Below are positions 194 through 53,424 of a stretch of 64,000 nucleotides of DNA, piece by piece. This DNA comes from Bacteroidota bacterium (GTDB lineage: Bacteria; Bacteroidota; Bacteroidia; Chitinophagales; Saprospiraceae), in NCBI GenBank assembly GCA_016124585.1, contig WGNL01000006.1, positions 1-64,000 on the forward strand, given 5' to 3'. A program made the position numbers and the translations under genes. How positions within the stretch are numbered: position 1 is the first letter of the stretch; each line of letters opens with the position of its first letter. The notes under the pieces were generated by a model, which was not told the DNA's origin, did no database searches, and saw nothing but the letters and a program-made list of their open reading frames with translations.

Positions 194-424
194 GTCAATT
201 ATTCATTATCTCTTGCCATTTTCTCATTATTTTTTTATAAAAAACAACAAAATGTTTTTGATTTAACATTTTATGTTTCCAATTATGCCTTCCTCATCCC
301 TGAGAAACGAATTTAAAAAGCCAGAAAATGAGGTTTATAAAACAAAAAATTAGTTATTATTCAGGATTAATGGAAAAATGACGAGGGAAAATGAGAAAAT
401 GACAAGAGATAATGAATAATTGAC
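194..424. repeat. 34/35-bp inverted repeat with word-like arms
   Basis: Positions 194-228 and 390-424 are inverted copies matching at 34 of 35 positions, separated by 161 bp of AT-rich sequence. Each arm is made of degenerate words around AATGA/ATAATGA/AATTGAC. Together with the AT-rich spacer it fills most of the 430-bp gap 109-538, in which no convincing ORF is seen. It belongs by architecture to the fold-back elements seen later in the window (for example 13167-13241, 51302-51445). It shows no transposase and no clear target duplication. Confidence 0.75.
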
Positions 425-435
425 AAAGAACAATT

Positions 436-470
436 AAAAAATGACCACGATTAATCAATAATCGTGGTCA
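436..470 (-). terminator. Rho-independent terminator of the TonB receptor gene
   Basis: A perfect 12-bp stem (442-453 with 459-470) closes a 5-nt loop. Read on the minus strand it is followed directly by six T (complement of 436-441). It lies about 70 bp after the stop of the receptor gene at 539 and has the right orientation to end its transcript. Confidence 0.8.
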
Positions 471-538
471 AAACAGTTATTTTGCAACGCATTGTTGCAA
501 TTTTTTGTAAAAAAGGGACTTTTTTTAAGAAGATATCC

Positions 539-2914
539 TCAGAACTGCACCCGCCACAACAAATCGGGGAAGAACCCAATCTGATTCACCTGCTGCACCT
601 CACCTTTCTCCCGGTTGAAGCGGTAGGTGAACACGTTTTCATGGTTCGTCACATTCTGGAAATCGAGGAAAAACTGCTGTGACAGCTTGCGCTTTTTGCT
701 GTTCAGGCGGTAGCCAAACTTCACATCCCAGCGCAGGTACGTGTCAATCCGCTCGCTGTATGCCTTGTCTTCCTGGAACACTTGTTTTCCTTCGGCAATG
801 CTCGCCGCCAAGTCAATCGGCGTGTAGTAGCGACCGCCCGCCGCCGTGAATTTGGTGTCAAAAGTCAAGGCATTGCGTTTGTCCTTGCCGATTTTCACCT
901 CCTTGCCCGCCAAGAAATTCATGGTGTATTTGTTATTGAAAGCCGTGTTGCGCTCGATGCCGTCGCTGCCTTTGTATTTACTATCAAAAACAGAACCCGT
1001 CACCAACACGTAGTAGCCACGACTGAAAAATTTCTCCACAGTCAGTTCGGCGCCGTAGTTCTTCCCAGTACCTTCGTTCACCAAATAATGTTCCTCTGGG
1101 AAGCCAAAATCAGCACCCACGTTCAGCATCGAAAAGCTGCCGGGCTCGCTTTGAATCGGAACATTGCCAAGGGCCTGGTAGTACGTTTCTGCTTTGATGC
1201 GCCAGTCGCCGCCCACCTTGACATCGTAACCCAGCACGAATTGGTGGCTGCGGGTGAATTCCATGTCCTTGTTCGTGCGCACCTGCTCGCCATCCGGCAG
1301 CATCACTTGGAGGAAGTACATCGGCAGCGGCTGCATCTGACTGTGCAGGCCGTAGCCGAGGTTCAGGGTTTGGTTTTCGGTCAAATGGTAATTCAGTGCG
1401 AGGCGAGGCTCAATGGCCCAAGTGTCGTTGAAGGTCAGGTACTGGCCGTGCAGACCGCCGTTCAGCGTCAGTTTTTCACTCAAGCGGTACTGCGTCTGGG
1501 CGTAAGCTTGCAGCAGGCCGAGGTTGCCGTCGAAATCCCGCAGCGTTACCCAATCAGGGCGGGCTTCCCTGTCACGCAGGAAATTGTTTAGGTGGAAAAG
1601 CTCAGCAATGACGCCCGTGCGCAGTGTGAGTCGGGCATTGTATTTTTTGTTCAAAAGGCTTGAAAATGTATAGCGGTTCACGGCGTCGTCCACCTCCAAA
1701 TGGCGGCGGATACTGCCATCTTCCTGCACTTTTTCCTCGTTGTAGGTATTGGCGGAATTGGAAGCGGCGATGGTCGTGCGGAGGTAAGTCGTTTCGTTGA
1801 TGAGCAGGCGGTGCGTGAGGCCCAGCACGCCAAATTGCGACTTCACGTAGCTGTTCTGGTCGGTTTCACCGTAAAAATCTTCATCAGAAAGGTCTTTCCC
1901 GATGAAGTCAATATTGCTCAAACCACCGATGCCGAACAGGCTGAAATTGCCGAATTTGGTTTTTGGCAAATCCACTTTAAACGATAAATCCTTGTACTTC
2001 GGCGTAGCTGTTGTGCCGATGTTGAGGCCAGCTTCGTTCGCCAATTCCGCAAACGAGTGGCGGTATGCCACGAGATACGAGCCTCCTTTTTCCTTGCTGA
2101 TGGGGCCTTCGGCCATAGCTTCCAAGCCGCTGAACGCCGCCAATTGGAACGTGTACTCGTGGTTTTCCCTGTTTCCGCTTCGCAACTGAATGTCGAACAC
2201 ACCCGAAAGTGCATTGCCGTATTCAGCAGGGAAAGCTGAAGTGAGGAAATCGCTGTTTTTCAGCAAATTGGTGTTGAGGGCGCTCACGGGGCCGCCCGTC
2301 GTGCCGAGGGTTGAGTAGTGGTTCGGGTTGGGAATGGCTACACCGTCCAAGCGCCAGAGGAGTCCCGTCGGGGAGTTGCCCCGGATGACGATGTCGTTGC
2401 GGCTATCGTCGCTGATATTTACCCCAGCGAAATTGGCGGCCATGCGGGCGGCGTCGTTGCGGGCACCGGAGTAGCGGGTCACTTCTTCGAGGGAAAACTG
2501 CCGAGCACTGATGGTGGCCAGTTCATTGCCAGCCTTGTCCTTGTCCACTTGGGCCGTCACCACCACTTCATTCAGTTGGGTAAAAGACTCGGCCATTTTC
2601 ACTTCCAAGAACACTTCCTTGCCCGCCGTTACGACGATGTTCGGGATGGTGACACCCTCGTAGCCGATGTAACTGAAACGCAGGGTCTGCCTACCAACGG
2701 GCACATTCGGGAGTGCGAAGGAGCCATCGGGTTCGGTGACGGTGCCAGTGGCATCGGCAGCATCCAGTAATTCCACGGTGACGCCGATGAGCGGCGTTTC
2801 GGATTGTTGGTCGAGGACGCTCCCCCGGATGGTCTGGGTAGGGTTTTGGGCAACGCCCATTGCTGCGAAAAGCAGCGACAAAAATGAAATCGTTAAGAGT
2901 CGGGTGATTTTCAT
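539..2914 (-). CDS. TonB-dependent outer membrane receptor with carboxypeptidase-regulatory N-terminal domain
   Basis: The 791-residue product starts with a signal peptide (about residues 1-22, cut before QNPTQ), followed by a CarboxypepD_reg-like beta-sandwich (about 28-110, with the typical GSVLD and YIGYEG segments), a plug domain (about 125-235, including NDIVIRGNSP and LDGVAIPNP) and a long C-terminal beta-barrel rich in alternating aromatic residues that ends in F. This is the standard layout of Bacteroidota TonB-linked receptors that import large or chelated substrates. No SusD-like partner gene is adjacent, so a SusCD glycan system is unlikely, and the substrate cannot be read from the sequence. 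The nearest upstream gene (FKBP, same strand) is 181 bp away, so it probably has its own promoter. Confidence 0.88.
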   Translation of the reverse strand: MKITRLLTISFLSLLFAAMGVAQNPTQTIRGSVLDQQSETPLIGVTVELLDAADATGTVTEPDGSFALPNVPVGRQTLRFSYIGYEGVTIPNIVVTAGKEVFLEVKMAESFTQLNEVVVTAQVDKDKAGNELATISARQFSLEEVTRYSGARNDAARMAANFAGVNISDDSRNDIVIRGNSPTGLLWRLDGVAIPNPNHYSTLGTTGGPVSALNTNLLKNSDFLTSAFPAEYGNALSGVFDIQLRSGNRENHEYTFQLAAFSGLEAMAEGPISKEKGGSYLVAYRHSFAELANEAGLNIGTTATPKYKDLSFKVDLPKTKFGNFSLFGIGGLSNIDFIGKDLSDEDFYGETDQNSYVKSQFGVLGLTHRLLINETTYLRTTIAASNSANTYNEEKVQEDGSIRRHLEVDDAVNRYTFSSLLNKKYNARLTLRTGVIAELFHLNNFLRDREARPDWVTLRDFDGNLGLLQAYAQTQYRLSEKLTLNGGLHGQYLTFNDTWAIEPRLALNYHLTENQTLNLGYGLHSQMQPLPMYFLQVMLPDGEQVRTNKDMEFTRSHQFVLGYDVKVGGDWRIKAETYYQALGNVPIQSEPGSFSMLNVGADFGFPEEHYLVNEGTGKNYGAELTVEKFFSRGYYVLVTGSVFDSKYKGSDGIERNTAFNNKYTMNFLAGKEVKIGKDKRNALTFDTKFTAAGGRYYTPIDLAASIAEGKQVFQEDKAYSERIDTYLRWDVKFGYRLNSKKRKLSQQFFLDFQNVTNHENVFTYRFNREKGEVQQVNQIGFFPDLLWRVQF

Positions 2915-3095
2915 GACGCTAATTTTTGATGAAAAATTTGATGGGACAAAAATGAGCGGTGGACAGAAGGTAAGCGAATGGTTTCCGATGAACTGTAGAA
3001 TGGTTATGATGAATTGTCAGCAAAAAAATCCCAAATACCGTCGAATGATTGACGAATTGGCTTTTGGGCAAATGGGTTTGTTCAGGCTAATCAGT

Positions 3096-3995
3096 TTATT
3101 TCTTCAGCATTTTTATCTTGAAAATCAACACGCTGTTCGCTGGCACCTTGCCGATAGGGATGGCGCCGTAAGCTAATTTGGAAGGCACCAACAGCCAGCC
3201 TTCGCTGCCAGGATTGAAGAACTTCATACCTTCTTCCCAACCCTCGATGACTGTGGCTGCACCCAGCGTGAACTCGAATTTTTCCGATCGATCAAAAATG
3301 GTGTCATCTTTCAAAAAGCCCTCGTAAGCCACGGCAATTTTATCGCCCGGCTTGGCCATTGGGCCTTTGCCCTGCTTGGTGACAGTGTAGCTCAGGCCAG
3401 AATTGGTGCGTCGCACGATCAAGCCATGCGCTGACGCATACGTTTCGATGTCTTTCAAATCTTGCTGAAACTGCTGTACTCGCTCCAATTCGTAAGCTTT
3501 TCGTTCCCGCTCCTCCAAATCACGCATGTACTGGTCGTATTGTTCGAAATTCATCACGTCAAGCAGTTCCACTTCGTAAATCAAGGCTGCGTTTGGCGGT
3601 ACATCCTGAGCGCCGTACTGCTGGTAGCCCAACGCTGGCGGTAAGAAAAGCGTGGCCGTCGTTCCTTTTTGGAGCAATTGCACGCCGTGGTCGAGGCCCT
3701 TAATGACCTCGTGGTTGCCCACTTGGAACACCAGCGGATTTCCCTCCTCCGACTGGTCGAACACGGTGCTGTCGAGCAGCATGCCCCGGTAGTTTAACAG
3801 GACAAAATCACCTTTGGAGGGAGCTGGCCCAGTTCCTTTTTTTGATAAAAAATAATGTATCCCCTCTGGAGAGGCTTGCGTGGCAGGGGCGTTTTTTTGT
3901 AAAAAATTATCCAGTGAAGGCAGGCTGTCAGTTTGTGCCCGCGACCAGTTTACACCCAAGAATGCAAGGAATACGAGGAGTTTAATCTTTTTCAT
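3096..3995 (-). CDS. Exported peptidyl-prolyl isomerase with two FKBP domains
   Basis: This 299-residue protein has a signal peptide (about residues 1-20, ending SRAQ) and two FKBP-type isomerase domains, roughly residues 45-150 and 195-299. Both carry the family signatures: YRG or YEG, a TVFDQS or TIFDRS strand, V-I-G/E-G-x2-x-G-x-x-L or M, and an alanine/tyrosine-rich LGYQQYG or LAYGAIP loop before the final strand. It should speed proline isomerisation and folding of exported proteins in the periplasm. The charged linker between the domains (about 155-190) looks helical. Tandem FKBP proteins are common in Bacteroidota. There is no membrane anchor or lipobox. Confidence 0.88.
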   Translation of the reverse strand: MKKIKLLVFLAFLGVNWSRAQTDSLPSLDNFLQKNAPATQASPEGIHYFLSKKGTGPAPSKGDFVLLNYRGMLLDSTVFDQSEEGNPLVFQVGNHEVIKGLDHGVQLLQKGTTATLFLPPALGYQQYGAQDVPPNAALIYEVELLDVMNFEQYDQYMRDLEERERKAYELERVQQFQQDLKDIETYASAHGLIVRRTNSGLSYTVTKQGKGPMAKPGDKIAVAYEGFLKDDTIFDRSEKFEFTLGAATVIEGWEEGMKFFNPGSEGWLLVPSKLAYGAIPIGKVPANSVLIFKIKMLKK

Positions 3996-4072
3996 CTGAA
4001 TGGACTTTTAAAACTTAAAGCGAATAAGTAGGTGTAGGTGTTGTCCCTTATGAATCCTAAACTCGAAACTTT

Positions 4073-5677: not shown

Positions 5678-5698
5678 GTTAAGTTTTGTTTACAATCA

Positions 5699-5706
5699 CA
5701 AAGTTA
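5699..5706 (-). promoter_or_regulatory. Putative -7 element for nadB
   Basis: On the minus strand this reads TAACTTTG, a full match to the Bacteroidota TAnnTTTG element, 21 bp before the nadB start. A second copy of the same octamer lies at 5720-5727, so two start points are possible. Confidence 0.5.
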
Positions 5707-5761
5707 CAGTGTGATAGGACAAAGTTAGGACGTAAAAAAATTGCGAAGCCACCACCTTCAT

Positions 5762-5791
5762 TTGTTTTTGAAATATATCGCCCTACTTTTG
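5762..5791 (+). promoter_or_regulatory. Putative promoter of the 5.8-kb membrane protein
   Basis: TTG at 5762-5764, 19 bp spacing and TACTTTTG at 5784-5791 match the Bacteroidota -33/-7 pattern. The start codon follows 33 bp downstream. Confidence 0.55.
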
Positions 5792-5824
5792 GTCGCTTAT
5801 TTTTGAACAAAATACAAATGGATT

Positions 5825-6610: not shown

Positions 6611-6630
6611 GTCACCAAATTCTCTAACGA

Positions 6631-6666
6631 AAAAGCCGCATCGACCAGCTGGTCGATGCGGCTTTT
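6631..6666. terminator. 36-bp perfect palindrome, bidirectional terminator
   Basis: The 36 bases are identical to their own reverse complement: an A tract, an 11-12 bp GC-rich stem and a T tract. Because it is symmetrical it can end transcripts of both convergent genes (5825-6610 on plus and 6685-7719 on minus), 20 and 18 bp from their stops. Confidence 0.85.
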
Positions 6667-6684
6667 ATATGCTAAAATGTTTAA

Positions 6685-7719: not shown

Positions 7720-7768
7720 AAACCAGCGAACTTTTGTGTGCAGTACTTCTTAGCGAATGAATGTGTTG

Positions 7769-13166: not shown

Positions 13167-13241
13167 TTGTTGAATTGCTATATTGCTGAATTATTTTTAC
13201 TGCCTTTTCTCCAACAATTCAGCAATATAGCAATTCAACAA
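13167..13241. terminator. 26-bp perfect fold-back between convergent genes, probable bidirectional terminator
   Basis: 13167-13192 and 13216-13241 are perfect inverted copies (26/26) around a 23-nt loop. The arms consist of related words (TTGAATTGC, TATTGC, TGAATT). It starts 4 bp after the M1 stop and ends 7 bp before the rodA stop, the place of a shared terminator, but T tracts are poor and its size is far above a normal terminator. It belongs to the word-type fold-back family of this window. Confidence 0.65.
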
Positions 13242-14647: not shown

Positions 14648-14736
14648 AAGGATTGAATGGGAGAAGGATTAAGGGGTTGAAGGGTTGAAGATGTTGGAGG
14701 TTAACTTAACTTCAATCCTTCTCCCATTCAATCCTT
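14648..14736. repeat. Word-type fold-back element touching the rodA start
   Basis: 14648-14670 and 14714-14736 are perfect 23-bp inverted copies. Arms and loop are built from drifting words (AAGGATTGA, GAAGGATTAA, GGGGTTGAA, GGGTTGAAG). It fills the whole 102-bp space between the stop of the downstream-transcribed barrel gene (14746) and the rodA ATG. Confidence 0.75.
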
Positions 14737-14745
14737 CAATCCTTT

Positions 14746-15465
14746 TTAATCTACATATTCTACTTTGCGAAGAAGGCGAAATCCCGCCGTTATTTCAAAG
14801 GTGACATTGCGAATGGTGCGTTCCTGGATTGTTTTGTTTTGACCTGTGTTTGGGTCGTACACATTTGGGATGGCCGGTTGTTTGTATTGGTAAGAGAAAT
14901 CGGGGTTTACAGTGAACTCCAGCAATGCACCGACCAATTCTCCAAGTTCAAATTCGAGACCTCCGCCTAACGTGACACCGTAGTTCCATTTTTTTACAAA
15001 ACCATTATCTGGGTAAAAAAGGCTTCTGTAGTACTCATTGACTTCCTTGTATTCGTCAAGGTTGGTGCCCAATGTGTAATCGCCACGCAGCCCAAAAAGA
15101 TAGTACCCCTTCATCATGTCGGAAATGTTATACTTGCGTTTGCCCCCCAAAATGACGGAAATATTTTTGAACAGAAATTCCTGCGCAGAAAGGCGGTAGA
15201 AATTGCCATTTTGATCTAAAAAGCTACCATTGCGTAGGGCGCTACCTTTTACGTGGTAACCCGCTTGCGCAAAAATCGAGAAATCGTCGAGGCTTTCAGC
15301 GGAGATAGCACCGTGGTATTTGAAGAGTGGGTCCTGATCAAAGCCGTTCCATTTTTGGATGCCGAGCGTCAGCCCTCCCTTAATGGTATAGGCGGTGCCT
15401 TGTGCGCACAATTTTGTGATAGTCAAGGCGAAAAGGGTAATTGGCAGCAAGAGTTTTACCTTCAT
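14746..15465 (-). CDS. Outer membrane beta-barrel protein
   Basis: The 239-residue product has a signal peptide (about 1-21, ending LCAQ) and then repeated beta-strands with glycine and aromatic residues, e.g. YTIKGGLTLG, FAQAGYHVKG, YYLFGLRGDY and GVTLGGGLEF, as in small outer-membrane barrels of the PorT/OmpW-like types of Bacteroidota. No specific family is recognised. A 30-codon upstream extension passes through the terminator hairpin at 15505-15546, so the ATG at 15465, followed by a clean signal sequence, is chosen. Confidence 0.8.
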   Translation of the reverse strand: MKVKLLLPITLFALTITKLCAQGTAYTIKGGLTLGIQKWNGFDQDPLFKYHGAISAESLDDFSIFAQAGYHVKGSALRNGSFLDQNGNFYRLSAQEFLFKNISVILGGKRKYNISDMMKGYYLFGLRGDYTLGTNLDEYKEVNEYYRSLFYPDNGFVKKWNYGVTLGGGLEFELGELVGALLEFTVNPDFSYQYKQPAIPNVYDPNTGQNKTIQERTIRNVTFEITAGFRLLRKVEYVD

Positions 15466-15504: not shown

Positions 15505-15546
15505 AAAAGCACAGCCAAACCTGACAGTGGGTTTGGCTGTGCTTTT
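15505..15546 (-). terminator. Terminator after the glucosaminidase/LysM gene
   Basis: A perfect 17-bp stem (15505-15521 with 15530-15546) with an 8-nt loop begins and ends with A and T tracts. On the minus strand it follows the stop at 15578 by about 30 bp. Confidence 0.85.
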
Positions 15547-17120: not shown

Positions 17121-17825
17121 ATGAACACACAGACCCGTCGGTATTTATTCATTGATTACGAAAACCTGCTGCAGGTTAAGTTCAAGAAATTAGAGAAGGT
17201 TGCGTCTAAAATCTTCATCTTCGTCGAATCCACGCAGGAAACGGTTCCGCTTGCGCTTGTGCGTCAGGCACAGAGTTCTGGTAAAAACATACGTTGGATA
17301 GTGGTCAACAACCCCAATGGTGGCAAACTGAACTATCATATCGCCTTCATCATGGGCAAACTCCACCAAAAGCTGGAAGACGACGTGGAGTTTGCCGTCG
17401 TGTCTAATGACCCTGAATTTGACCCACTCATCAGCTTTATCAATACCACTGGCCGCAGTTGCATACGCGTAAAACGCAAACAGGACGAAAGCTCCATTTA
17501 CGAAGAATCCAGCCTGAACTACAGCAAGCCACCTGAGTTCGTGGACGAGTTTTCGATGAAAAATTTCCATGAAAATACCGCGGAAGAGGAGGATGGGATG
17601 CCCGTCATGGTAGAGGACGAATTGATTACCCGCACTGCCGAAGAAACCGTCAAGCGCCTTATCCGCTCAGGCAATCGCCCCGCCGAGATTTCAACTTTGA
17701 AAAATTACATACTTTTGCACAGTCAAGAAGTTTCCCTGCACGGAAATGTCGAGCGCATCATTCAGAAGTTGAAGGATACAAAAGACATCGAAATCCAGAA
17801 AGGGGAAGTGATTTACAATTTTTAG
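17121..17825 (+). CDS. PIN-like domain protein, putative nuclease
   Basis: The N-terminal part (about 1-125) of this 234-residue protein resembles the PIN/NYN nuclease fold: the first strand carries the acidic start YLFIDYENLL (D12, E14), a later strand ends VVSNDPEFDPLI with two more acidic residues, and a final strand reads RSCIRVKR. The C-terminal 70 residues form a small helical domain (TAEETVKRLIRSGNRPAEI...) similar to winged-helix/OST-HTH tails of such proteins. It is likely RNA-related, but the substrate is unknown. It lies upstream of frr, with a repeat in the 91-bp gap, so co-transcription is possible. Confidence 0.72.
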   Translation: MNTQTRRYLFIDYENLLQVKFKKLEKVASKIFIFVESTQETVPLALVRQAQSSGKNIRWIVVNNPNGGKLNYHIAFIMGKLHQKLEDDVEFAVVSNDPEFDPLISFINTTGRSCIRVKRKQDESSIYEESSLNYSKPPEFVDEFSMKNFHENTAEEEDGMPVMVEDELITRTAEETVKRLIRSGNRPAEISTLKNYILLHSQEVSLHGNVERIIQKLKDTKDIEIQKGEVIYNF

Positions 17826-17899
17826 ACAATGGACCTAAGACTTTAGAAAAAGCTAGTCCCGGTCTAAAGTCCAACATCTAATTTCTCAAAGTCTAAAAA
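17819..17899. repeat. Word-type repeat between the PIN-like gene and frr
   Basis: TTTTTAGAC at 17819-17827 and GTCTAAAAA at 17891-17899 are inverted copies, and inside them words such as GACTTTAGA and TCTAAAGTC recur in both directions. The left arm contains the stop codon of the PIN-like gene (17823-17825). Arms are less perfect than in the other elements. Confidence 0.5.
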
Positions 17900-18477: not shown

Positions 18478-18541
18478 AAATTGGCAGTTTGACAGTTGGC
18501 AGTGTGCAGTCAACTTGGAAATAGCTTGCAAATATCTATAC

Positions 18542-18589
18542 AAAAAGAAGAGAGGTGACACTTTTTAGAATGTCACCTCTCTTCTTTTT
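18542..18589. terminator. Strong bidirectional terminator between frr and the DUF5682 gene
   Basis: A perfect 19-bp stem (18542-18560 with 18571-18589) and 10-nt loop, starting with an A tract and ending in a T tract, separates the convergent genes. Just before it, 18480-18518 holds single-arm word repeats (TTGGCAGT, TGACAGT, TTGGCAGT, GTGCAGT). Confidence 0.88.
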
Positions 18590-18609
18590 GAATCATCAAA
18601 TAATAGAAA

Positions 18610-20889
18610 TCACCCAAGCAGCCCCCTCACCAGTGGCAACACTTGCCCTGCCCTATCCTCCTCAAAATCAGCTACTTCCGCCATCTTTTCTATCACCTGA
18701 CCTCGTTTGGCAATGTTCAACATCCGCTCCCGCTCCGGCGCTGGAAAACGAGAGAAGGTTCGCCGCAGCAGTGGGAGTGTATCCCTGAAAACATCCTCGT
18801 GCAGGCCGTCCACCCAGTTGTCCAACAGGTTCCAGAGAGCGGAATTGTGGAGCAAAAGCAGGCCGCTACCTTGCAGGAATCCCTCCAACCATTGCGCAGC
18901 CTCCAGCGGTGGCGTGGCTTGGGAAAGCGAGTATTCCATGCGGATGGCAGTCTCAGCTTCCGACCTGATTTTTTTATCAAATAAAATACGGGTACAAGCG
19001 CCCGTCAGAATTCCATTGACCAATTGGTTGTCAGCGATGAAGGCAATGCAGTCGAACCACTGGCCGAAAAAACTGGGCTCATTGAGCAGGCCGAGTGCCC
19101 GGTTTACCCCCATCAATTTTTCAAAAGCTTCCCGACTGGCATCCTCGTCGAGGTTGACAACGGCAGCAGGCAGTCCAATGCAGATGCGGGGTACGAGATG
19201 CTGCACTACTAACTCCACCGCCCGCACATCAGTGCCACGGGTATTGCCGTAGCGCACGATTTGCGCCAGCGGTGGTAGCGCTTCCATCAAGTGGTAAACA
19301 TCGGTGGTGAGGGCGGCAAGATTCTCCAATTTGCGCAGCAACAAACCGAAAGCTGCTGGCAAATCGGCGTTCAACACCTGCTTCACGAGCTGCGTGAGCG
19401 CAGGCAGCGCCTCGGTTTCTTCCGTTTTTTTGGTTAAAAAATTGACACAGGCTTCTTCCACAGTATTCCCCCAAGCTCCTTTTTCAATGATGCGGATGGC
19501 GAAATCCGGCGACCATTTCAGCTTCCAAAACTCTTTAAAGCCGCCCGCCGATTGATGGCGGTTCAGTTCCATGAGCCTGCCCCAAGGGATACCGAGCAAC
19601 TGGAGGCGGTGCAACAGGTGGCTTTTCATCCGCCCTGATTCTTCCCGAAGGTCAATGCCTCCCTGCGGCGAAGCAGCAGTGGCACCGAGCCATTCCTCGT
19701 CGGTGTTTGACCAATATTTGGTCAAACGGGCAGATTTCACCGCCTGTTCGATGTCTTTTTGCAGGGGCACGGTGGGAATGTCATCAGGAACACTGCCCAC
19801 TTTTTTTCCCGTAATTAGCTTATTTTCAATCAGTTGCAGCTTCTCCAAATCGCCTTCACAAATGGTGGTGACTGCCGCTTCCCGCAATTCGTCAATGCCC
19901 GGCAGGGCCAATCCCCGCATCGTTGCCAGTGTCTCCGCCAGCCGGATGGCCTCAATCACATTGGCCGACGAGGCGTCGAGGTCTTCTTTGCGGAGCAATA
20001 TGGCTACCTGGACCATCCAGTGTGTCGCAGCGTTTTTCCCTTCCGAAAAAATCAGTTCGTACCACGCCGGGGAGACGATGCCCGCCCGATAACCGCTCTG
20101 GAAAGTGAGGCGGTCGTAGCTCCATGGAATCCAGGTAGCCGTGGTCTTGATTTTTTTGATGCCCTTCAGCAGGGCGGCGTCGTGGCTGGCTTTTATTTTT
20201 TCAAAACCGGCCAGCGCAGGCACGTGCCACGCCCCGCACACGACGGCGATATTTTGAAAACCGTCCTTCTCGGCCTTCCGAATGGCTTGCCGCATGTACG
20301 CCTCCCGCAGCAGGGTTCGGAGGCTTTCCTCGGTGCCTTCCCGCAGGGCGGCCATCATCTTCGCAATGGCGGCAAAAATCTCCGCCCCGTTCCCGGCACT
20401 CTCGAACATGGCTTCCCACCAGCGTTCGCTGTCCGTGTAGCCTGCCAGCGTGGCGAGGTGCGCCATCGGGTCGGCCCGGAAGGCACGCTCTTCGGGGGTC
20501 ATTTTTTCCAAAAATCCGAGCGCCGACTGCGGGTTTTGCCGCTCGGCCTCGTCAAGGGCGAAATGGATGTCCATGCCCAAGTCCATGAAGCGAACGGGGA
20601 TGTTCCGTTGCTGCGCAAACTGGATGGCCTGCCACTCCGGCGAGAACTCGGCGAAGGGGAGATAGCTCGCTCGCCCCAGGTCTTTGGGGTCGTAGATGAG
20701 CATGGCGACGGGGGGTATCAAGGATTGAGGGGTTGTAGGATTGAGGGATTTAATATGAGCGGCCATTGGCTCGGCATCGGCTGGGGCTTCGACGAGAAGA
20801 CAGTCAGGCGGATTGGCTTCGAGGGCCGAAAGGACGGCTTTGGTAGAGCCGGGGCCATGATGTCGGATGCCGAGGAGTGAGATGGTCAT
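18610..20889 (-). CDS. DUF5682 family protein
   Basis: The 759-residue protein begins LLGIRHHGPGSTKAV and LLVEAPADAE, the recognisable start of the DUF5682 family, which contains conserved RHHGPGS and later FAEFSPEWQ and CGAWHVPAL segments. In other bacteria such genes lie with SWIM-finger, DUF5691, MoxR-type AAA and VWA genes, a suspected multi-component system of unknown role; none of those partners is here, so it is an orphan copy. Residues 46-58, between MAAH and PPVAM, are encoded by repeated TCAATCCT-type words (20720-20754) like those in the intergenic fold-back elements, probably a later insertion. Function is unknown. Confidence 0.8.
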   Translation of the reverse strand: MTISLLGIRHHGPGSTKAVLSALEANPPDCLLVEAPADAEPMAAHIKSLNPTTPQSLIPPVAMLIYDPKDLGRASYLPFAEFSPEWQAIQFAQQRNIPVRFMDLGMDIHFALDEAERQNPQSALGFLEKMTPEERAFRADPMAHLATLAGYTDSERWWEAMFESAGNGAEIFAAIAKMMAALREGTEESLRTLLREAYMRQAIRKAEKDGFQNIAVVCGAWHVPALAGFEKIKASHDAALLKGIKKIKTTATWIPWSYDRLTFQSGYRAGIVSPAWYELIFSEGKNAATHWMVQVAILLRKEDLDASSANVIEAIRLAETLATMRGLALPGIDELREAAVTTICEGDLEKLQLIENKLITGKKVGSVPDDIPTVPLQKDIEQAVKSARLTKYWSNTDEEWLGATAASPQGGIDLREESGRMKSHLLHRLQLLGIPWGRLMELNRHQSAGGFKEFWKLKWSPDFAIRIIEKGAWGNTVEEACVNFLTKKTEETEALPALTQLVKQVLNADLPAAFGLLLRKLENLAALTTDVYHLMEALPPLAQIVRYGNTRGTDVRAVELVVQHLVPRICIGLPAAVVNLDEDASREAFEKLMGVNRALGLLNEPSFFGQWFDCIAFIADNQLVNGILTGACTRILFDKKIRSEAETAIRMEYSLSQATPPLEAAQWLEGFLQGSGLLLLHNSALWNLLDNWVDGLHEDVFRDTLPLLRRTFSRFPAPERERMLNIAKRGQVIEKMAEVADFEEDRAGQVLPLVRGLLG

Positions 20890-26226: not shown

Positions 26227-26302
26227 GTTTTGGTAAAATCAAACCAAAAGGAGTAGCTTTCGACCGCAATTTTTGCACAAAACAAAAATCAACTTTAAGC
26301 AG

Positions 26303-28087
26303 ATGCAACTATCCACACTTGATTGGTCAATCGTGGCCGCATTCTTTGTGCTGTCATTGGTCATTGGTCTTGTAGTCAGCAAACGGGCTGGCGAAAGTGC
26401 CTCCGAATATTTCCTCTCCGGGCGCTCTATGCCTTGGTGGTTGCTGGGCTTTTCGATGGTCGCCACCACCTTCAGTGCCGATACTCCGAACCTTGTCACG
26501 GATATTGTTCGGAAAAATGGTGTCAGTGGCAACTGGCAGTGGTGGGCTTTCCTGCTTACGGGCATGTTGACTGTATTTGTTTACGCTAAACTCTGGCGGC
26601 GTAGTGGCGTACTAACTGACCTCGAATTTTACGAACTGCGCTACTCCGGCAAAGAAGCCGCCTTTCTGCGGGGCTTCCGGGCGCTGTACCTCGGTGTGTT
26701 TTTCAATGTGATGATCATGGCGACGGTCTCGCTTGCCGCTATAAAAATCGGTGGTGTGTTGCTAGGGCTTTCGCCAATTCAAACCATCCTGATTGCAAGC
26801 ATTGTGACAGTGGCCTACACTTCACTGGGTGGTCTAACGGGGGTTATCTGGACAGATTTTTTTCAGTTCATTGTTGCCATGATCGGCGTGGCGGGAGCGG
26901 CTTATGTGGTGGTCAATTTGCCCCAAGTGGGAGGCTTGTCGGCCATGTTGGCACACCCTAACGTGGCTGGTAAGTTGAGTGTATTGCCTGACTTTCACGA
27001 TATGAGTGTGCTAGTGCCTTTCCTAATCATGCCCCTCGCCATTCAATGGTGGAGCGTATGGTATCCCGGAGCCGAGCCGGGCGGAGGCGGCTACATCGCT
27101 CAGCGGATGCTTTCTGCCAAAAACGAGAACCACGCCATCACGGCTACCTTGTTCTTCAATTTTGTGCATTATGCACTGCGTCCTTGGCCTTGGATTGCTG
27201 TGGCCTTAGCTTCACTTATCGTTTTTCCCGATGTGGCTTCCTTGAAAACGGCCTTTCCGAACTTGCCAGCCAATATCATCAACGATGACCTTGCTTATCC
27301 AGCCATGATGTCCTTCTTGCCAAGCGGCCTTTTAGGCATCATTGTGGCGGCACTGATAGCGGCATATATGTCCACCATTGCTACTCACCTCAATTGGGGC
27401 TCAAGCTACGTGGTCAATGATTTTTACAAGCGGTTCATCAAGCCGGAAGCCAGTGACAAAGAGCAAGTGACAGTAGGTAGGATTTCGACGCTGGTACTGA
27501 TGGTTTTTTCCGCATTGTTGGCATTGTTGCTTTCAAATGCGCTGCAAGCTTTCAATATCCTCCTGCAAATCGGTGCAGGTACGGGTCTGATTTTCATCCT
27601 CCGCTGGTTCTGGTGGCGTATCAATGCTTGGAGCGAGATTTCGGCAATGATTATTTCGTTTGTGGTGGCTTGTGTTTTTGAATTTGGGTTCCCTGATGTA
27701 CCCTCGCATATCAAACTCATGGCTGGGGTAGGTATCACTACAATCGGGTGGATAGTGGTCACTTTCATGACCCAGCCCACTGCTCATTCCAAATTGCTTA
27801 ATTTTTACAAACTCATTAAACCACAGCCGACTGGCTGGCAAGCCGTCATTCAACCTGCCCTTACGACTGGGGAATTGCAGCCTAGCGATGTAGTTCCCGG
27901 CAAACTTCCGCTTGAAATCATGTGCATGATTGCTGGCTGCTTCTTGGTGTACGGAGCGTTGTTCGGTCTCGGTTTCTGGATGTATGGGGAGATTGGCAAA
28001 GCGCTGATTGGGCTTGCGGTTTCTGCCTTAGCTACTTTGGTTTTGGTGAAATCATGGAGTCAGGTAAAAGGCAGTATGTTGGAGTAG
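26303..28087 (+). CDS. Sodium:solute symporter family transporter
   Basis: The 594-residue product is a multi-pass membrane protein of the SSS family, with about 12-14 segments. Family features include SASEYFLSGRSMPWWLLGFSMVATTFSADTP at the N-terminal side (the sodium-site region), SLGGLTGVIWTDFFQF and the GLLGIIVAALIAAYMSTIATHLNWGSSYVVNDFY stretch. The solute (sugar, amino acid or other) cannot be read. Extending ten codons upstream would need a TTG start, so the ATG at 26303 is used. It follows the T9SS-B gene by 76 bp on the same strand. Confidence 0.9.
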   Translation: MQLSTLDWSIVAAFFVLSLVIGLVVSKRAGESASEYFLSGRSMPWWLLGFSMVATTFSADTPNLVTDIVRKNGVSGNWQWWAFLLTGMLTVFVYAKLWRRSGVLTDLEFYELRYSGKEAAFLRGFRALYLGVFFNVMIMATVSLAAIKIGGVLLGLSPIQTILIASIVTVAYTSLGGLTGVIWTDFFQFIVAMIGVAGAAYVVVNLPQVGGLSAMLAHPNVAGKLSVLPDFHDMSVLVPFLIMPLAIQWWSVWYPGAEPGGGGYIAQRMLSAKNENHAITATLFFNFVHYALRPWPWIAVALASLIVFPDVASLKTAFPNLPANIINDDLAYPAMMSFLPSGLLGIIVAALIAAYMSTIATHLNWGSSYVVNDFYKRFIKPEASDKEQVTVGRISTLVLMVFSALLALLLSNALQAFNILLQIGAGTGLIFILRWFWWRINAWSEISAMIISFVVACVFEFGFPDVPSHIKLMAGVGITTIGWIVVTFMTQPTAHSKLLNFYKLIKPQPTGWQAVIQPALTTGELQPSDVVPGKLPLEIMCMIAGCFLVYGALFGLGFWMYGEIGKALIGLAVSALATLVLVKSWSQVKGSMLE

Positions 28088-43586: not shown

Positions 43587-43592
43587 GTCGTG

Positions 43593-43668
43593 TCATTGAT
43601 CATTAGGGTCATTTGTCATTAAGTAAATGCGGTATCAAATGACTAATGACTTCCAATGACCCCCAATG
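43593..43668. repeat. Word-type fold-back that also encodes the end of the HAD protein
   Basis: Left words TCATTGATCATTAGGGTCATTTGTCATT and, inverted, the right words AATGACTAATGAC, CCAATGACC and CCCAATG are imperfectly complementary. The right arm holds the last eight codons and the stop of the HAD gene (minus strand, tail residues ALGVIGSH). Confidence 0.6.
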
Positions 43669-44257
43669 CTGTAAGTTCCTCCCGCAATTTTTCAGGTGAA
43701 TGGAACTGAATGGACTCAATGCCCATCTCCTTTCCAGCTAGCACATTACGAAGATTATCATCTATGAATATGGCCTCCGAAGGCGCCACCTCGTAGCGGT
43801 CAAGTAGGATTTGGTAAAATTCTGGGAAAGGTTTGCGGGTCATTTCCGTTCCGCTGACCACGATACCATCGAACCAATGCAGGAAATCGAATTTCTCCAA
43901 AGCAATCGGAAAAGTCTCCGCCGACCAGTTCGTTAGGGCATAGATTTTATATTTCCCCGAGTCTTTCAGTTCCTTGAAAATATCAACGGTACCTTGGATA
44001 CAATCACCCAGCATCTCTGACCACCGGCCATAATAGGCAGCGATTTCAGTCTGCCATTCAGGGTGTTCATCCAGCAGCAAGTCGGTGGCAGCTTGTAGTG
44101 TCCGGCCTGCGTCCTGCTCTTCGTTCCAGTGCGGGGTGCAGATATTTTCGTAGAAAAATTTTTTGCGCTCGGGATCGTCGAAGATGGTGTCAAAAACATA
44201 GTCCGGATTCCAGTCGATGAGGACGCCACCGAGGTCAAAAATGATGGTATTGTACAT
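43643..44257 (-). CDS. HAD-superfamily hydrolase (phosphatase-like)
   Basis: The 204-residue protein has the HAD motifs: motif I FDLGGVLID (the nucleophile aspartate is in FDLGG; the +2 residue is Gly instead of the usual Asp, as in YihX-type haloacid-dehalogenase-like phosphatases), motif II ALTNWS, a lysine in MTRKPFPEFY, and motif IV AIFIDDNLRNV. A helical cap lies at about 15-90. It should act on small phosphorylated or halogenated compounds. The start is ATG 44257; seven codons before it would need TTG. The C-terminal tail is written in repeat sequence. Confidence 0.87.
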   Translation of the reverse strand: MYNTIIFDLGGVLIDWNPDYVFDTIFDDPERKKFFYENICTPHWNEEQDAGRTLQAATDLLLDEHPEWQTEIAAYYGRWSEMLGDCIQGTVDIFKELKDSGKYKIYALTNWSAETFPIALEKFDFLHWFDGIVVSGTEMTRKPFPEFYQILLDRYEVAPSEAIFIDDNLRNVLAGKEMGIESIQFHSPEKLREELTALGVIGSH

Positions 44258-45699: not shown

Positions 45700-45703
45700 T
45701 TTT

Positions 45704-45778
45704 TTAATGGTGAATTGTAAACGGTGATTGGTGAATGGTAAGCAATTGCCTATTTGACCATTCACCGTTTACCATTAA
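45704..45778. repeat. Word-type fold-back between the M24 peptidase and Dabb genes
   Basis: The left arm (45704-45739) is made of GGTGAA/GGTAAA-type words; the right arm (45757-45778) is its inverse except for two 5-nt blocks present only on the left. It fills the whole 79-bp space from 4 bp before the M24 ATG to the stop of the Dabb gene. Its size and position could stop or slow transcription. Confidence 0.65.
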
Positions 45779-46189
45779 TTAAATTGCATCGATTGAATCA
45801 TAGACCACGACCTTCTCCCACAAATGCTTGTAGTTGTCAACGAAAGCGAGGTGAATCGGGTCAATTTGATAGGCATCTTGTGCGGTGCGGTCCTTGAGGG
45901 TGTTCAGCCAGGAGATGGCGTAGCTGCCGTCGATGACCTCTCGGCTGGTGCCAGCCGGAACGCCGATGTGCCAAGTTTTGATGTGCTTGATTTTGGTGAG
46001 CGTCATCAGGCCTTCCACGAGCTTATCACGGTCGGCTTGGCTGCTGGGGTTTTTCAACCAGAAGAAAACATGGTGTACGAAGATGCTTTTCATTGCCTTG
46101 GGTTTTGAATCTATGTTTTTGGCGACCAACGGCAAAGTGCTTGCTGCGGCTGCGGTTTTGATGAAATTACGACGGGTGGTGTTTTCCAT
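45779..46189 (-). CDS. Dabb-domain (stress-responsive alpha/beta barrel) protein with Tat signal
   Basis: The 136-residue product has a twin-arginine signal (TRRNFIKTAAAAS, about 1-30) and one Dabb domain from about residue 36: VHHVFFWLKNP, a helix ADRDKLVEGLMTL, IKTWHIGVP and SYAISWLNTLKD, ending PIHLAFVDNYKHLWEKVVVYDS. Dabb proteins are small ferredoxin-like barrels of mostly unknown role. Its start is 3 bp after the stop of the T9SS M1 peptidase gene, so they are probably one transcript. Confidence 0.87.
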   Translation of the reverse strand: MENTTRRNFIKTAAAASTLPLVAKNIDSKPKAMKSIFVHHVFFWLKNPSSQADRDKLVEGLMTLTKIKHIKTWHIGVPAGTSREVIDGSYAISWLNTLKDRTAQDAYQIDPIHLAFVDNYKHLWEKVVVYDSIDAI

Positions 46190-46192
46190 TTT

Positions 46193-48658: not shown

Positions 48659-48785
48659 GGCTGTAGTTGTTTTTAGTGGACGGCCAAATTAGGGCGCTAG
48701 GGCGAGGTGGCAAAATTTTATTCATTTTTGCCCCAGACCAGCCAACCGCCCGACAATTTTATGGTTGTTCTCAAAAAATTATCAA

Positions 48786-49775: not shown

Positions 49776-50176
49776 CGATTGGTTTCCATCAACAAACGTC
49801 GGAGAATGATACGGTCTGGTGCATTTAGTTTTAGCAATTTTATAGTCGCCTCTGCAATTCTAGTTTTTGCTATGATTTCGCCATCATCCAAGCCAAAATG
49901 TAAGTTCCATTCATCCTCCCTTGGGTTGAAAATCGTTGCAATGTCTTTGTATGATTTCAAAAATGTGACCATGTCAGAACTCTTGTGCTGATTGCAATGA
50001 GGGCAAGCATATGCAAGGTTTTCAGGCTCATTTCCTCCACCATGTTTTACGCTGATTATATGGTCTATTTCAAAGGGCAGAAAAGAGTCGTCTTCATGCA
50101 TTCGGCAATATTCGCAGCGAGAGCCTGCACGTTGGACAACTAATCGTCTTAAAGTGAGTGAAACTTGGCGACTCAT
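49766..50176 (-). CDS. HNH endonuclease
   Basis: The 136-residue protein has a complete HNH fold: CEYC (C21, C24), the catalytic pair in EIDHI (D38, H39), N53 in PENLAYACPHCN (zinc C58, C61) and H64. The short helical end (about 85-136) follows. It starts inside the stop of the small gene upstream (ATGA overlap), so both are made together; the same order of a small helical protein plus an HNH nuclease is common in cyanobacteria and other bacteria. The DNA target is unknown, and a toxin-like or mobile-element role is possible. Confidence 0.85.
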   Translation of the reverse strand: MSRQVSLTLRRLVVQRAGSRCEYCRMHEDDSFLPFEIDHIISVKHGGGNEPENLAYACPHCNQHKSSDMVTFLKSYKDIATIFNPREDEWNLHFGLDDGEIIAKTRIAEATIKLLKLNAPDRIILRRLLMETNRYP

Positions 50177-50409
50177 GCGGCAAGTAGTCGGTGAGCACGT
50201 GCCTTGGCAAGATTAATCAACATATCCAAGGCAAGGTAACGCTCCAGTTCATTGGCTTCCTCTTGGGATAACTGCCCTTCTTTTTTCTTTGCCACTAAAA
50301 CCTCCACTCTTTTGGACATAATTTTAGGTGCTTTCAAAGCCACAATCTTCGCCGGATCCATCTGGGCGAGCAATCCAGCTACATCGTCAAAAACTTCAGT
50401 TACTGTCAT
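50173..50409 (-). CDS. Small helical partner of the HNH nuclease
   Basis: A 78-residue helical protein with KEGQLSQEEANELERYLALDMLINLAKARAHRLL at the C-terminus. This kind of short protein, with a -E-E-x-E-L-x-x-Y-L-x-L-D-x-L- pattern, is often found directly before HNH genes, and I recognise it from such pairs, but no activity is established. Its stop overlaps the HNH start by four bases. A regulatory or antitoxin-like role is inference only. Confidence 0.7.
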   Translation of the reverse strand: MTVTEVFDDVAGLLAQMDPAKIVALKAPKIMSKRVEVLVAKKKEGQLSQEEANELERYLALDMLINLAKARAHRLLAA

Positions 50410-50459
50410 TTCGAATGATTTTCAACAAATTTACAGAAGCAGTGTCAGAATACCAATTG

Positions 50460-51254
50460 TCAAATACCCAACTTCACCTTCGCCTCATCCCACAGTGCAT
50501 CCATCTCTGCCAGCGTCATGTCATCCAAAGGCTTCGGCGCATTCGCTTCAATGTACTCGAAGCGAGCCTTGAACTTGCGGTTTACCCGCTCCAGCGCCGT
50601 TTCCGGCTCAATGTGAAGGAATCGGGCGTAGTTCACCAGCGCAAACAGCACATCACCGAATTCCTCTTCCTTTTTTTCTTGCGAAAAATCGCCTTCAACG
50701 GCCTCCCGCAGTTCGCCAATCTCCTCCTCGACTTTTGCCCAAACCTGCTCGGTCGTTTCCCATTCAAAGCCGATTTGCGCCGTTTTCTGCTGCATCCGCC
50801 AAGCCTTCACGAGAGCGGGCAAGGAGGTCGGAACGCCTTCCAGCAATGACTTTTTACCACTTTTCAATTTCAGTTTCTCCCAATTACGCTTCACTTCCTC
50901 CTCATCAGCCACTTGGGTGTCGCCGTACACGTGCGGGTGCCGCTGCACCAATTTGTCGCAGATGGCATGGAGCGCATCGGCCATGTCCCATGCCTGTTTT
51001 TCCTCTGCAATTTTTGCATAAAAAACCATGTGCAGCAGGATGTCCCCGATTTCCTCCTTTATGCCTTTGAGGTCATCGTCAAGGATGGCATCGGCCAGTT
51101 CGTAGGTTTCTTCGATGGTCAAGTTGCGCAGGGTCTGGAAGGTTTGCTTGCGATCCCAGGGGCATTTTTCCCGAAGGTCATCCATGATTTGGAGCAGGCG
51201 GGCGAAGGCGTCAAGTTTGGCGGGGAGGTTTGTAACTGTGTTTGTCATTTTCAT
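50460..51254 (-). CDS. mazG: Nucleoside triphosphate pyrophosphohydrolase MazG
   Basis: MazG hydrolyses NTPs to NMP and pyrophosphate and cleans the nucleotide pool. The 264-residue protein has the two tandem MazG domains: the first with CPWDRKQTFQTLRNLTIEETYELADAI and EEIGDILLHMVFYA (the EExxE..ExxD metal sites), the second with QVWAKVEEEIGELREAV and EEFGDVLFALVNYARF. This matches full-length E. coli-type MazG. Starts at 51254 and 51248 are both possible. A fold-back repeat separates it from aspS, which precedes it on the same strand. Confidence 0.93.
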   Translation of the reverse strand: MKMTNTVTNLPAKLDAFARLLQIMDDLREKCPWDRKQTFQTLRNLTIEETYELADAILDDDLKGIKEEIGDILLHMVFYAKIAEEKQAWDMADALHAICDKLVQRHPHVYGDTQVADEEEVKRNWEKLKLKSGKKSLLEGVPTSLPALVKAWRMQQKTAQIGFEWETTEQVWAKVEEEIGELREAVEGDFSQEKKEEEFGDVLFALVNYARFLHIEPETALERVNRKFKARFEYIEANAPKPLDDMTLAEMDALWDEAKVKLGI

Positions 51255-51301
51255 AAAATTATGGGAATACCAAGGGTAGGGCTTCAATTGGAACGAGTAG
51301 A

Positions 51302-51445
51302 ATTTGATTTAAGATTCCAGATTACATGATTCCAGATTTATGATTTTACGAGACGAGTACAGCTTGGGTCAAACAATCGGAAATCCCCAAATCGCTTTTC
51401 CAATCTAAAATTTTAAATCATGTAATCTGCAATCTTAAATCAAAT
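51302..51445. repeat. Word-type fold-back between aspS and mazG
   Basis: 51302-51331 and 51416-51445 are inverted copies identical at 29 of 30 positions, 84 bp apart. The arms and their flanks are made of GATTTAAGATT, CCAGATTACAT, GATTCCAGATT-type words. It fills most of the 227-bp space between mazG start and aspS stop. Confidence 0.75.
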
Positions 51446-51481
51446 ACAACAGATTTGCCTGAAGAACGGTGAGCGCCAAAC

Positions 51482-53263
51482 CTACCCCTTGGCGACCACT
51501 TTCAAATTCAACTCCGTAAGCTGCGCCTCATCCAGCACATCTGGTGCGTCGATCATCATATCCCGGCCCATGTTGTTCTTCGGGAAGGCGATGAAATCAC
51601 GGATATTGGTCTGGCCACGCATCACAGCGCAGAGGCGGTCAAGGCCGAAGGCGATGCCGCCGTGCGGTGGTGCGCCGAACTCGAAGGCACCGAGCAGGAA
51701 GCCAAACTGGTTCTCAGCCTGTTCAGGCGTGAAGCCAAGCAGCTTGAAATTCTTCTCCTGCAAGGCCCGGTCGTGGATACGGATGCTGCCGCCGCCGATT
51801 TCCACACCGTTCAGCACGAGGTCGTAGGCGTTGGCACGTAGGTTTTTCAGCGTCTCGTGGTCGCCAGACATCATCTTCTCAGCATCCTCTGGTAGCGGTG
51901 CAGTGAACGGGTGGTGCATGGCATAAAAGCGTTGCGTTTCCTCGTCCCACTCCAGTAGCGGGAAGTTGACAACCCAAAGCGGCTTGAAATCGCCCGCTTT
52001 CATCAGGCCCATGCGGCGGCCCATTTCGAGGCGGAGTTCATTGAGTTGCTTGCGGGTTTTTTCGGCTTCGCCGGAAAGCACGAGCATCAGGTCGCCCGGC
52101 TTGGCGCCCATTTTATCAGCAAACGCCTGCAATTGGTCTTCGCTGTAGAACTTGCTGACGCTGCTACGGAAGCGGCCAAATTCGCCGTTCGGATCGAGGT
52201 TGTATTTTATCCAAACCAAGCCTTTCGCCCCGATTTGCGGGCGCTGCATCCATTCGGTCAGTTCCTTGATGTCTTTGTTGGAAAACGATTCAGCCTGTCC
52301 TTCGGCACAGATGCCTACGACCAGTTCGGCGCTGTCAAAAACGGAGAAGCCGTGGCCTTGTGCTACCGAATTCAGCTCGCAAAACTCCATGCCGAAGCGG
52401 ATGTCCGGCTTGTCGGAACCGTAACGGGTCATGGCTTCGTCGTAGCTCATGCGAGGGAAGTCGGCCATGTCCAAGCCAAGCACGGACTTGAACAGGTGCT
52501 TGGTCAATCCTTCGAAGGTGTTGAGAACATCCTCACGGGTCACGAAGGCCATCTCGCAGTCTATCTGCGTGAACTCCGGCTGGCGGTCGGCCCGTAGGTC
52601 TTCGTCCCGGAAGCATTTCACGATTTGGAAATACTTGTCCATGCCCGCTACCATCAGGATTTGCTTGAAAGTCTGCGGCGACTGCGGCAGTGCGTAAAAC
52701 TGGCCAGGGTTCATGCGGCTAGGAACCACGAAATCACGGGCACCTTCCGGGGTGCTCTTGATGAGGTTTGGCGTTTCTATTTCGATGAAGCCCTCGCCTG
52801 CCAAGTGCTTGCGGGTCTCAATGGCCACCTGCGAACGGAACATGAGGTTTTGCTGCACGGGCGCACGGCGGATGTCAAGGTAGCGGTACTTCATGCGGAG
52901 GTCGTCGCCACCGTCGCTGGTATCTTCGATGGTGAAAGGTGGAGTCTTTGAAGCATTCAGGATTTGCAATTCTTTCACCTCAATCTCGATGTCACCTGTG
53001 GGGCGATTGGGGTTCTTGCTGGAGCGTTCCCGCACTTTGCCGAAGGCAGAAATGACAAACTCACGACCCATTTTGCGGGCACGTTCGCAGAGCGCAGCAT
53101 CATCGTCCATGTTGAAAACGAGCTGTGTGATGCCGTAGCGGTCACGGAGGTCAACGAAGGTGAGGCCGCCGAAATCACGCCCAGTCTGCACCCAGCCTGA
53201 TAGTTTCACTTCTTGTCCAACGTGTGAGATGCGGAGCTCGCCGCAGTTGTGTGTACGATACAT
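51482..53263 (-). CDS. aspS: Aspartate--tRNA ligase
   Basis: AspRS charges tRNA-Asp. The 593-residue protein has an OB-fold anticodon domain (about 1-105, [26 protein letters not shown]), class II motif 2 around [18 protein letters not shown], an inserted GAD domain typical of bacterial AspRS (about 285-415) and motif 3 GIAFGLDRL near the C-terminus. Length and domains are normal for the bacterial type. A large fold-back repeat starts 17 bp upstream of its start codon. Confidence 0.96.
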
Positions 53264-53279
53264 TTGTCTTAGTTAATCC

Positions 53280-53424
53280 AAGTTGCGGATGTTGGTTGAT
53301 AATGGTTGATAAAGTTGATAACGGTTGAATTTTGCGAATTAGTAGGCAAAAATCAACCGTTATCAACCCTTATAAACTGTTATCAACCTTATCAACCCTG
53401 CCTTTTCTAAGTTATCCGCAACTT
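53280..53424. repeat. Large word-type fold-back upstream of aspS
   Basis: Within 145 bp the words GGTTGATAA/GTTGATAACGG recur on the left and TTATCAACC on the right. Perfect pairs are 53280-53290 with 53414-53424 (11 bp) and 53315-53328 with 53353-53366 (14 bp). Next to it (53425-53510) another block of GAGTTATGAG/GAGCTTTGAG words follows. Both lie in the 541-bp gap 53264-53804, whose remainder holds only the promoter of the M23 gene and a -7-like TATTTTTG on minus (53528-53535) that may serve aspS; transcripts of aspS would then carry the fold-back in their leader. Confidence 0.7.

Follow-up and report, generated by a model that had tools for sequence, protein, structure and literature searches.

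Word-built intergenic fold-backs with a one-way strand composition at gene ends in the Saprospirales

The window, which is the whole 64,000-nt stretch of DNA analysed here (G000:C10:1-64000), belongs to a genome of 6.63 Mb in 45 contigs. The host is a member of the Saprospirales (Bacteroidota) and not a cyanobacterium; its peptidase M1 gene has its named relatives in the Saprospiraceae and other Saprospirales. Inspection of the intergenic regions revealed fold-backs whose arms consist of short tandem words. The first fills the convergent gap between the peptidase M1 and FtsW/RodA genes, with the two stop codons 4 and 7 nt away, and the second fills the gap from the start of the FtsW/RodA gene to the stop codon of the gene at 14746-15465 on the minus strand. 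Another lies between the start of a peptidase M24 gene and the stop codon, 2 nt off, of a Dabb-domain gene. The class II (D, K, N) tRNA synthetase gene (51482-53263, minus strand) carries one fold-back downstream and one upstream, the latter in a divergent gap and one of just two divergent cases in the whole sample.

The original prediction had listed eight sites sharing one plan, an arm of drifting words and an inverted copy of it (Table 1). Comparison of each site, gaps allowed, with 200 mononucleotide shuffles of the same stretch showed that six of the eight beat the best shuffle, while 43593-43668 was borderline (score 11.0 against a shuffle maximum of 12.0 and mean of 6.0) and 17819-17899 gave no significant inverted repeat (score 9.0 against a maximum of 9.5 in 200 shuffles). 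The four arm matches quoted for the best sites were exact. The window holds six gapless inverted repeats with a score of at least 18, whereas 10 first-order Markov sequences gave none; 6631-6666 and 18541-18590, two of these six, are terminator-like and not word-built. Strong terminator-like hairpins with an A-run and a T-run (both strands) form a contrast class in the window, made up of these two and of 15505-15546 and 59954-60002. No gathering-threshold match to Rfam was obtained in the window, and BLAST against plasmids gave one weak partial match for 45700-45782 and none for 43590-43672.

Table 1. Positions, arms and words of the inverted repeats considered in the window.
Feature	Position	Strand	Arms	Arm match	Words	Remark
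Fold-back	13167..13241	.	13167-13195 / 13213-13241	28/29 columns (26/26 gapless, 13167-13192 / 13216-13241)	TTGAATTGC/TATATTGC	
Fold-back	14648..14744	.	14648-14670 / 14714-14736	23/23	8-nt, AAGGATTGA	
Fold-back	45713..45776	.	45713-45735 / 45754-45776	20/23	7-nt, AATGGTG	
Fold-back	51302..51445	.	51302-51345 / 51402-51445	38/44 (core 29/30, 51302-51331 / 51416-51445)	7-nt, GATTACA/GATTTAA	
Fold-back	53294..53388	.	53294-53335 / 53346-53388	37/43	10-nt, GGTTGATAA	
Inverted repeat	194..424	.	194-228 / 390-424	34/35		loop 161 nt
Degenerate word fold-back	43592..43660	.	43592-43615 / 43636-43660	22/27 columns	GTCATTN	borderline against shuffles
Site listed in the original prediction	17819..17899	.		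best arm 9/9		not significant

The survey took in 857 kb from the own genome plus 124 stretches from relatives, together 2.32 Mb with 1354 gaps; the relatives are mostly metagenome assemblies, with one genome per species. Genes were called with a home-made caller, and loops were limited to 90 nt and arms to at least 15 bp, which places site 194-424 outside the survey. A total of 297 inverted repeats was found; with arms of at least 15 bp there were 67 terminator-like repeats (A-run and T-run), 56 word-built repeats (periodicity p < 0.01, terminator-like repeats excluded) and 99 that showed no word structure (p > 0.1), and the remainder were intermediate. Periodicity at p < 0.01 was observed in 56 of 180 non-terminator repeats against 2 of 67 terminator-like ones. 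Removal of duplicates left 55 distinct word-built fold-backs in the 2.3 Mb of own and related DNA; duplicates are removed from the 55-element counts given below, while the counts of 101, 56 and 269 still contain a few.

Of the 557 gaps in the 857 kb of own-genome sequence, 119 reached a score of 20 against 3.2 expected, and inverted repeats with a score of at least 18 numbered 38 in 121 kb of intergenic DNA against 5 in 736 kb of coding DNA. Tandem arrays chosen regardless of inversion were also far more numerous than in shuffled gaps (269 against 19), and 118 of them had an inverted partner with a score of at least 12, against none after shuffling. No array was found in the 76 gaps of an E. 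coli control (150 kb). Eleven loci of cultured isolates yielded 16 arrays in 150 gaps with 2 paired elements, and isolates of Lewinella or Neolewinella are among the carriers of such elements (loci L126 and L128). The cyanobacterial sequences examined were a Gloeothece plasmid (250 kb) with 28 arrays, of which 1 was paired, and a Nostoc plasmid with 5 arrays, of which 3 were paired (2 elements; one array was counted with the opposite polarity, for a net skew of +1). The 23 elements of the own genome were distributed over contigs C10 (11 elements; 257 kb, GC 0.480), C23 (10; 120 kb sampled, 0.487) and C35 (2; 480 kb, 0.417), a density of about 27 per Mb which is uneven and extrapolates roughly to about 178 per genome.

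Other repeats were noted in the same sample. Contig C35 is low in GC (0.417 against about 0.48 for the other two contigs, C10 and C23) and poor in word fold-backs; it may represent another replicon region, an island or a binning mixture. It harbors a separate palindrome family (gtaacacggactgccagtccgtg) at 20042-20132, 60735-60825, 65983-66075 and 285256-285403, which together with a weak Y1 transposase match in an open 217-aa frame (C35:60968-61183) is possibly a REP/RAYT pair. Two MITE-like elements of 160 bp with inverted ends aggaacgrtgaaa were found at G000:C10:88231-88391 and G000:C23:8543-8705, and the motif is also present in one relative (L183). An inverted-repeat family starting with ggattg(a/g)aaagcc and free of words was located at G000:C10:162024-162108, 170988-171068 and 174980-175044 and at C23:106350-106435.

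Analysis of the word structure indicated that the best period was 8 nt in 29 and 7 nt in 25 of the 56 fold-backs. The claim of the original prediction that arms agree better with each other than the words within an arm was borne out. In the 43 elements with arms of at least 22 bp, which had been selected for inversion, arm-to-arm identity was 0.907 against a best within-arm word identity of 0.721, and the former exceeded the latter in 40 of the 43; arrays picked by tandem words alone with a partner score of at least 14 (n = 101) pointed in the same direction (0.905 against 0.830). Perfect arms were uncommon (7/56). The predicted RNA stability of the fold-backs was high, with a median of -43.4 kcal/mol against -26.6 kcal/mol for the terminator-like repeats.

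The strongest regularity, which is new here and was overlooked in the original prediction, is a near-absolute polarity. The 5' arm carried more G than C in 54 of the 55 distinct word-built fold-backs, more C than G in none, and one was tied; the corresponding ratios (G>C to C>G) were 45:43 for the other inverted repeats and 26:31 for the terminator-like ones. The composition of the word-built 5' arm was 27% A, 6% C, 35% G and 32% T. Among distinct paired arrays, 58 were G-rich with the partner at the right and 41 C-rich with the partner at the left, with no case of the opposite arrangement (99:0). Since a fold-back reads alike on both strands, this polarity is independent of gene direction. 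Paired arrays within 15 nt of a gene were G-rich in 41 of 41 cases after stops and C-rich in 27 of 27 cases before starts. Unpaired arrays near genes showed the same polarity in a weaker form (39 G-rich and 8 C-rich after stops, 20 C-rich and 4 G-rich before starts), so it may be a property of gene borders rather than of strand snap-back. In 16 gaps with two unrelated unpaired arrays, the G-rich array preceded the C-rich one in 10 and followed it in 1, and both were of the same kind in 5. Six of the eight window sites had a 5' arm with more G than C and one was tied; the exception is 194-424, whose loop is above the survey limit and whose polarity is reversed (5' arm with 2 G and 8 C).

The fold-backs are closely tied to gene ends. 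At 47 of the 67 adjoining gene ends the fold-back started no more than 10 nt from the stop codon, against 32/126 for other inverted repeats and 8/95 for terminator-like ones, and the median gap length was 108 nt against 241 and 147 nt in the two other repeat classes. By gap type, fold-backs occupied 50 of 861 tandem gaps, 21 of 235 convergent gaps and 2 of 251 divergent gaps, and the avoidance of divergent gaps was significant (2/251 against 71/1096 other gaps, p = 7e-5). A terminator-like repeat was present in 3 of 74 fold-back gaps and in 64 of 1280 others, with no significant mutual exclusion.

The original prediction had suggested that the elements may be a way of building terminators or spacers, or the trace of a copying process. 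Their position supports a link with 3' ends, but the idea of a canonical terminator found no support. Like intrinsic terminators, they are hairpins beside the stop codon and occupy the same orthologous junctions, but their stems are longer, the 5' arm is C-poor rather than A-rich, and a sense-strand T-run followed the fold-back at only 2 of 67 gene ends (against 45/95 for terminator-like repeats, a class chosen partly by its A/T runs, and 28/126 for other repeats). The missing T-run argues against classical intrinsic termination, and termination would therefore need another helper. Taken together, the position after stops, the rarity in divergent gaps and the junctions shared with terminators suggest a role at transcript ends. 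Stable stem-loops after bacterial stop codons, within about 50 bp and favouring convergent gaps, have been described (Petrillo et al. 2006, PMC1590033); the fold-backs resemble them in these respects, whereas the word 'tandem' is absent from that report and polarity is not mentioned in the accessible part of it.

Orthologous junctions were compared in five sets of up to 12 same-genus genomes, around the class II tRNA synthetase, M1 peptidase, FtsW/RodA and peptidase M24 genes (assigned by Pfam); the M1 and FtsW/RodA sets have one junction in common in the own genome and in one relative (G007). Word fold-backs made up 14 of the 59 junction rows and canonical terminators another 13; the remaining rows were 9 with other hairpins, 10 with unpaired arrays, 8 with none of these and 5 with gaps shorter than 30 nt, the classifier having missed two own fold-backs, those at 14648 and 51302, which it scored as 'other hairpin'. 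Sister species carry at the same junction fold-backs with other words, ordinary terminators or nothing.

At the junction upstream of the FtsW/RodA gene (window 14648-14744), the elements of seven species were compared, two of the sequences being cut short; the comparison leaves aside one fragment and four relatives, of which two have unpaired arrays and two have gaps shorter than 30 nt. The words ranged from AAGGATTGA and GAGGATTTGA through to GACGGTTGAC across species, while the arms within each element agreed with identities of 0.96, 0.94, 0.83, 0.83, 0.96, 0.92 and 0.78 (scores 24, 30, 23, 24, 26, 39 and 18). The within-element score was above every cross-species arm score in five of the seven, with one tie and one lower; as a counter-case, the right arms of two relatives (G011 and G006) were 0.96 alike against 0.83 within the element of G011. 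The suggestion that orthologous arms change together was supported at the FtsW/RodA junction, the one analysed in depth, and by eye at the synthetase junction.

The further statement that each site uses a different word, so that the sites are not copies, failed. Word vocabularies recur genome-wide, and a shared vocabulary is specific to each genome: 29 of 72 own arrays matched another own array with a score of at least 18, but 9 did so when the comparison set was 71 foreign arrays, and none when it was shuffled arrays. The frame GGATTGAANNNGAGAAGGATTGAA, allowing up to two mismatches, gave 34 matches in the genome (reversed control 0), including window positions 14650 and 14711, and was matched in at least 10 of 14 same-genus genomes. 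For the 23 arm pairs among the matches listed, the middle 6 nt were identical in 6 against 1.00 expected when arms were re-dealt, and the mean number of mismatches was 2.00 against 2.57 (p = 0.004); re-dealing mixes genomes, and shared vocabulary may contribute to this agreement.

The agreement between arms could result from copying of one arm onto the other or from selection on RNA pairing, and the same pattern could come from either. The reading that we tentatively prefer, and to which we would give somewhat less than an even chance, is that the elements are 3'-flank hairpins whose sequence turns over fast through copying. Polymerase slippage would generate drifting arrays of 7-8 nt words in short intergenic gaps; the array would fold back, and the nascent strand may switch template onto the opposite arm, so that one arm would be copied onto the other and the arms would stay in step while the words change. 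Snap-back would fall to the C-poor strand, in which G.T and A-T pairs may allow self-priming that the G-poor strand could not achieve, and a one-way polarity would result. The hairpin would be kept at transcript ends as a partial terminator or a 3'-end protector without a U-tract. Slippage and template switching may in this way explain the words, the arm fidelity and their joint change. Work on quasi-palindromes in yeast describes template switches that extend the identity between imperfect arms (PMC3820800). SbcD is present in the genome, so hairpin cutting is not simply missing and loss of the hairpin nuclease was rejected; reverse transcription of the telomerase-like, retron or DRT kind was likewise rejected, as PF00078 gave no match in a genome of 100% completeness with positive controls.

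Selection without copying, in which RNA 3'-end hairpins (terminators or exonuclease barriers) are maintained by ordinary compensatory mutation and the words are incidental slippage, is the main rival; it appears unlikely to us, though it deserves weight. It accounts for the high stability, for the adjacency to stop codons and avoidance of divergent gaps, and for the orthologous junctions shared with canonical terminators. A wobble signature of selection on transcripts was absent from the arm mismatches in tandem gaps (26 wobble on the sense strand, 35 on the antisense strand and 47 neither), which is a weak test, and long stems may tolerate wobble and non-wobble mismatches alike. More difficult for such selection are the whole-word change from GGATTGA to GACGGTT at one junction, which would need many paired point mutations, and the 99:0 polarity, which it leaves unexplained.

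Two further explanations were considered, and both seem improbable. According to one, gene-border composition comes first: C-free sequence would be favoured downstream of stops and G-free sequence upstream of starts (readthrough stops, open leaders), and the fold-backs would then arise from the near-complementarity of the two halves. The polarity of the unpaired arrays at both borders (39:8 and 20:4), the ordering of two-array gaps (G then C in 10/16, C then G in 1/16) and the G-poverty of array-free gaps before starts agree with it. Such a rule does not produce arms that are alike in their drift, and array-free gaps after stops have no skew; when word structure was kept, stops were barely enriched (3.25 against 2.91 +- 0.17), although the codon TGA was (166 against 97). 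A stop-codon cassette was rejected on the same ground: plain shuffling had favoured stops in all three frames (0.34 against 0.13), and permutation of the letters within words removed the effect (0.36 against 0.34).

According to the other, the elements belong, with a greater diversity of words, to the polar G-rich heptamer repeats that Xanthomonas and Nostoc carry, and act through a G-quadruplex or i-motif. These heptamers (GGGNATC and GGGGA(C/T)T) are found on the sense strand downstream of stops and on the antisense strand upstream of starts. Inverted pairs of them number 70 and 75, few occur between divergent genes, and at a given gene junction both their length and their sequence differ among sister species; the authors favour quadruplexes without settling on a function (Rehm et al. 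2015, PMC4692102). The placing, the inverted pairs, the avoidance of divergent gaps and the changed sequence at the same junctions all speak for kinship (PMC4692102), and a kinship of repeat type is likely. However, none of the 56 5' arms and 5 of the 269 arrays contained four G-runs of three, and quadruplexes therefore cannot be the common cause; four G-runs of two occurred in 21 of the 56 arms.

A mobile palindrome family (REP/RAYT or MITE) spread through the gaps is the least probable explanation, for although the vocabulary is in common, with one frame matched 34 times in the genome and in at least 10 of 14 same-genus genomes, and Y1 transposases were found in 16 of 20 genomes searched, the own-genome Y1 matches are two overlapping stretches with stops and one below the cut-off, with one weak match lying in an open 217-aa frame, no common end sequence was found, position is conserved across species while the words differ, and words vary among sites as well as at one junction among species.

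The comparison with the STRR heptamers of filamentous cyanobacteria, which are short tandem words in gaps, amounts to a likeness between phyla, since the host is one of the Saprospirales, though two similar fold-backs were found on a 43-kb Nostoc plasmid. On that plasmid (L198, Nostoc sphaeroides plasmid p1) the word-built fold-backs lie at 1782-1927 and 26267-26376 and carry CAGTTATCAGTTATCAGT and GGGTGTAGGGTGTAGGG. TAACTGA heptamer repeats have been reported from Beggiatoaceae, Cyanobacteria and some Bacteroidetes, and their stops in all three frames were noted (MacGregor 2015, PMC4679880). They resemble the fold-backs in being intergenic 7-nt words with Bacteroidetes among the hosts, but are built, as far as that report describes, on one fixed word, lie mostly just 5' of start codons and are direct, with one inverted case in the main genome (PMC4679880). 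The TAACTGA unit was not among the words of the 56 fold-back arms, and TAACTGATAACTGA-like words were found just on the Nostoc plasmid. The closest precedent is the GGGNATC heptamer of Xanthomonas and Nostoc, which is alike in polarity. As far as described, both are tandem intergenic 7-nt words with the G-rich strand outward, form inverted pairs and avoid divergent gaps; the heptamers use one fixed, quadruplex-forming word, whereas the fold-backs use many words and their arms track each other. Among the papers listed from the open-licence literature, outside of which subscription papers mostly lie, there was none on polar word-built fold-backs with arms in step.

The copying of hairpins may be combined with a word-independent rule of gene borders, by which C-poor arrays of short words would lie on the strand that leads out of a gene and copying would keep the opposite borders complementary, the words being freely replaceable; that such a rule operates in this order, with a kin form in Xanthomonas and Nostoc, is possible, albeit doubtful. 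Under this rule, polarity and pairing, and not sequence, would be the information that is kept.

A polarity described for a quadruplex-forming heptamer needs no quadruplexes, which reopens the question of what such repeats do. Elements that keep pairing and polarity but not sequence escape homology tools and Rfam. If the arms are copied, the gaps of this genome would be natural records of template switching, at about 27 per Mb in the own sample, unevenly distributed.
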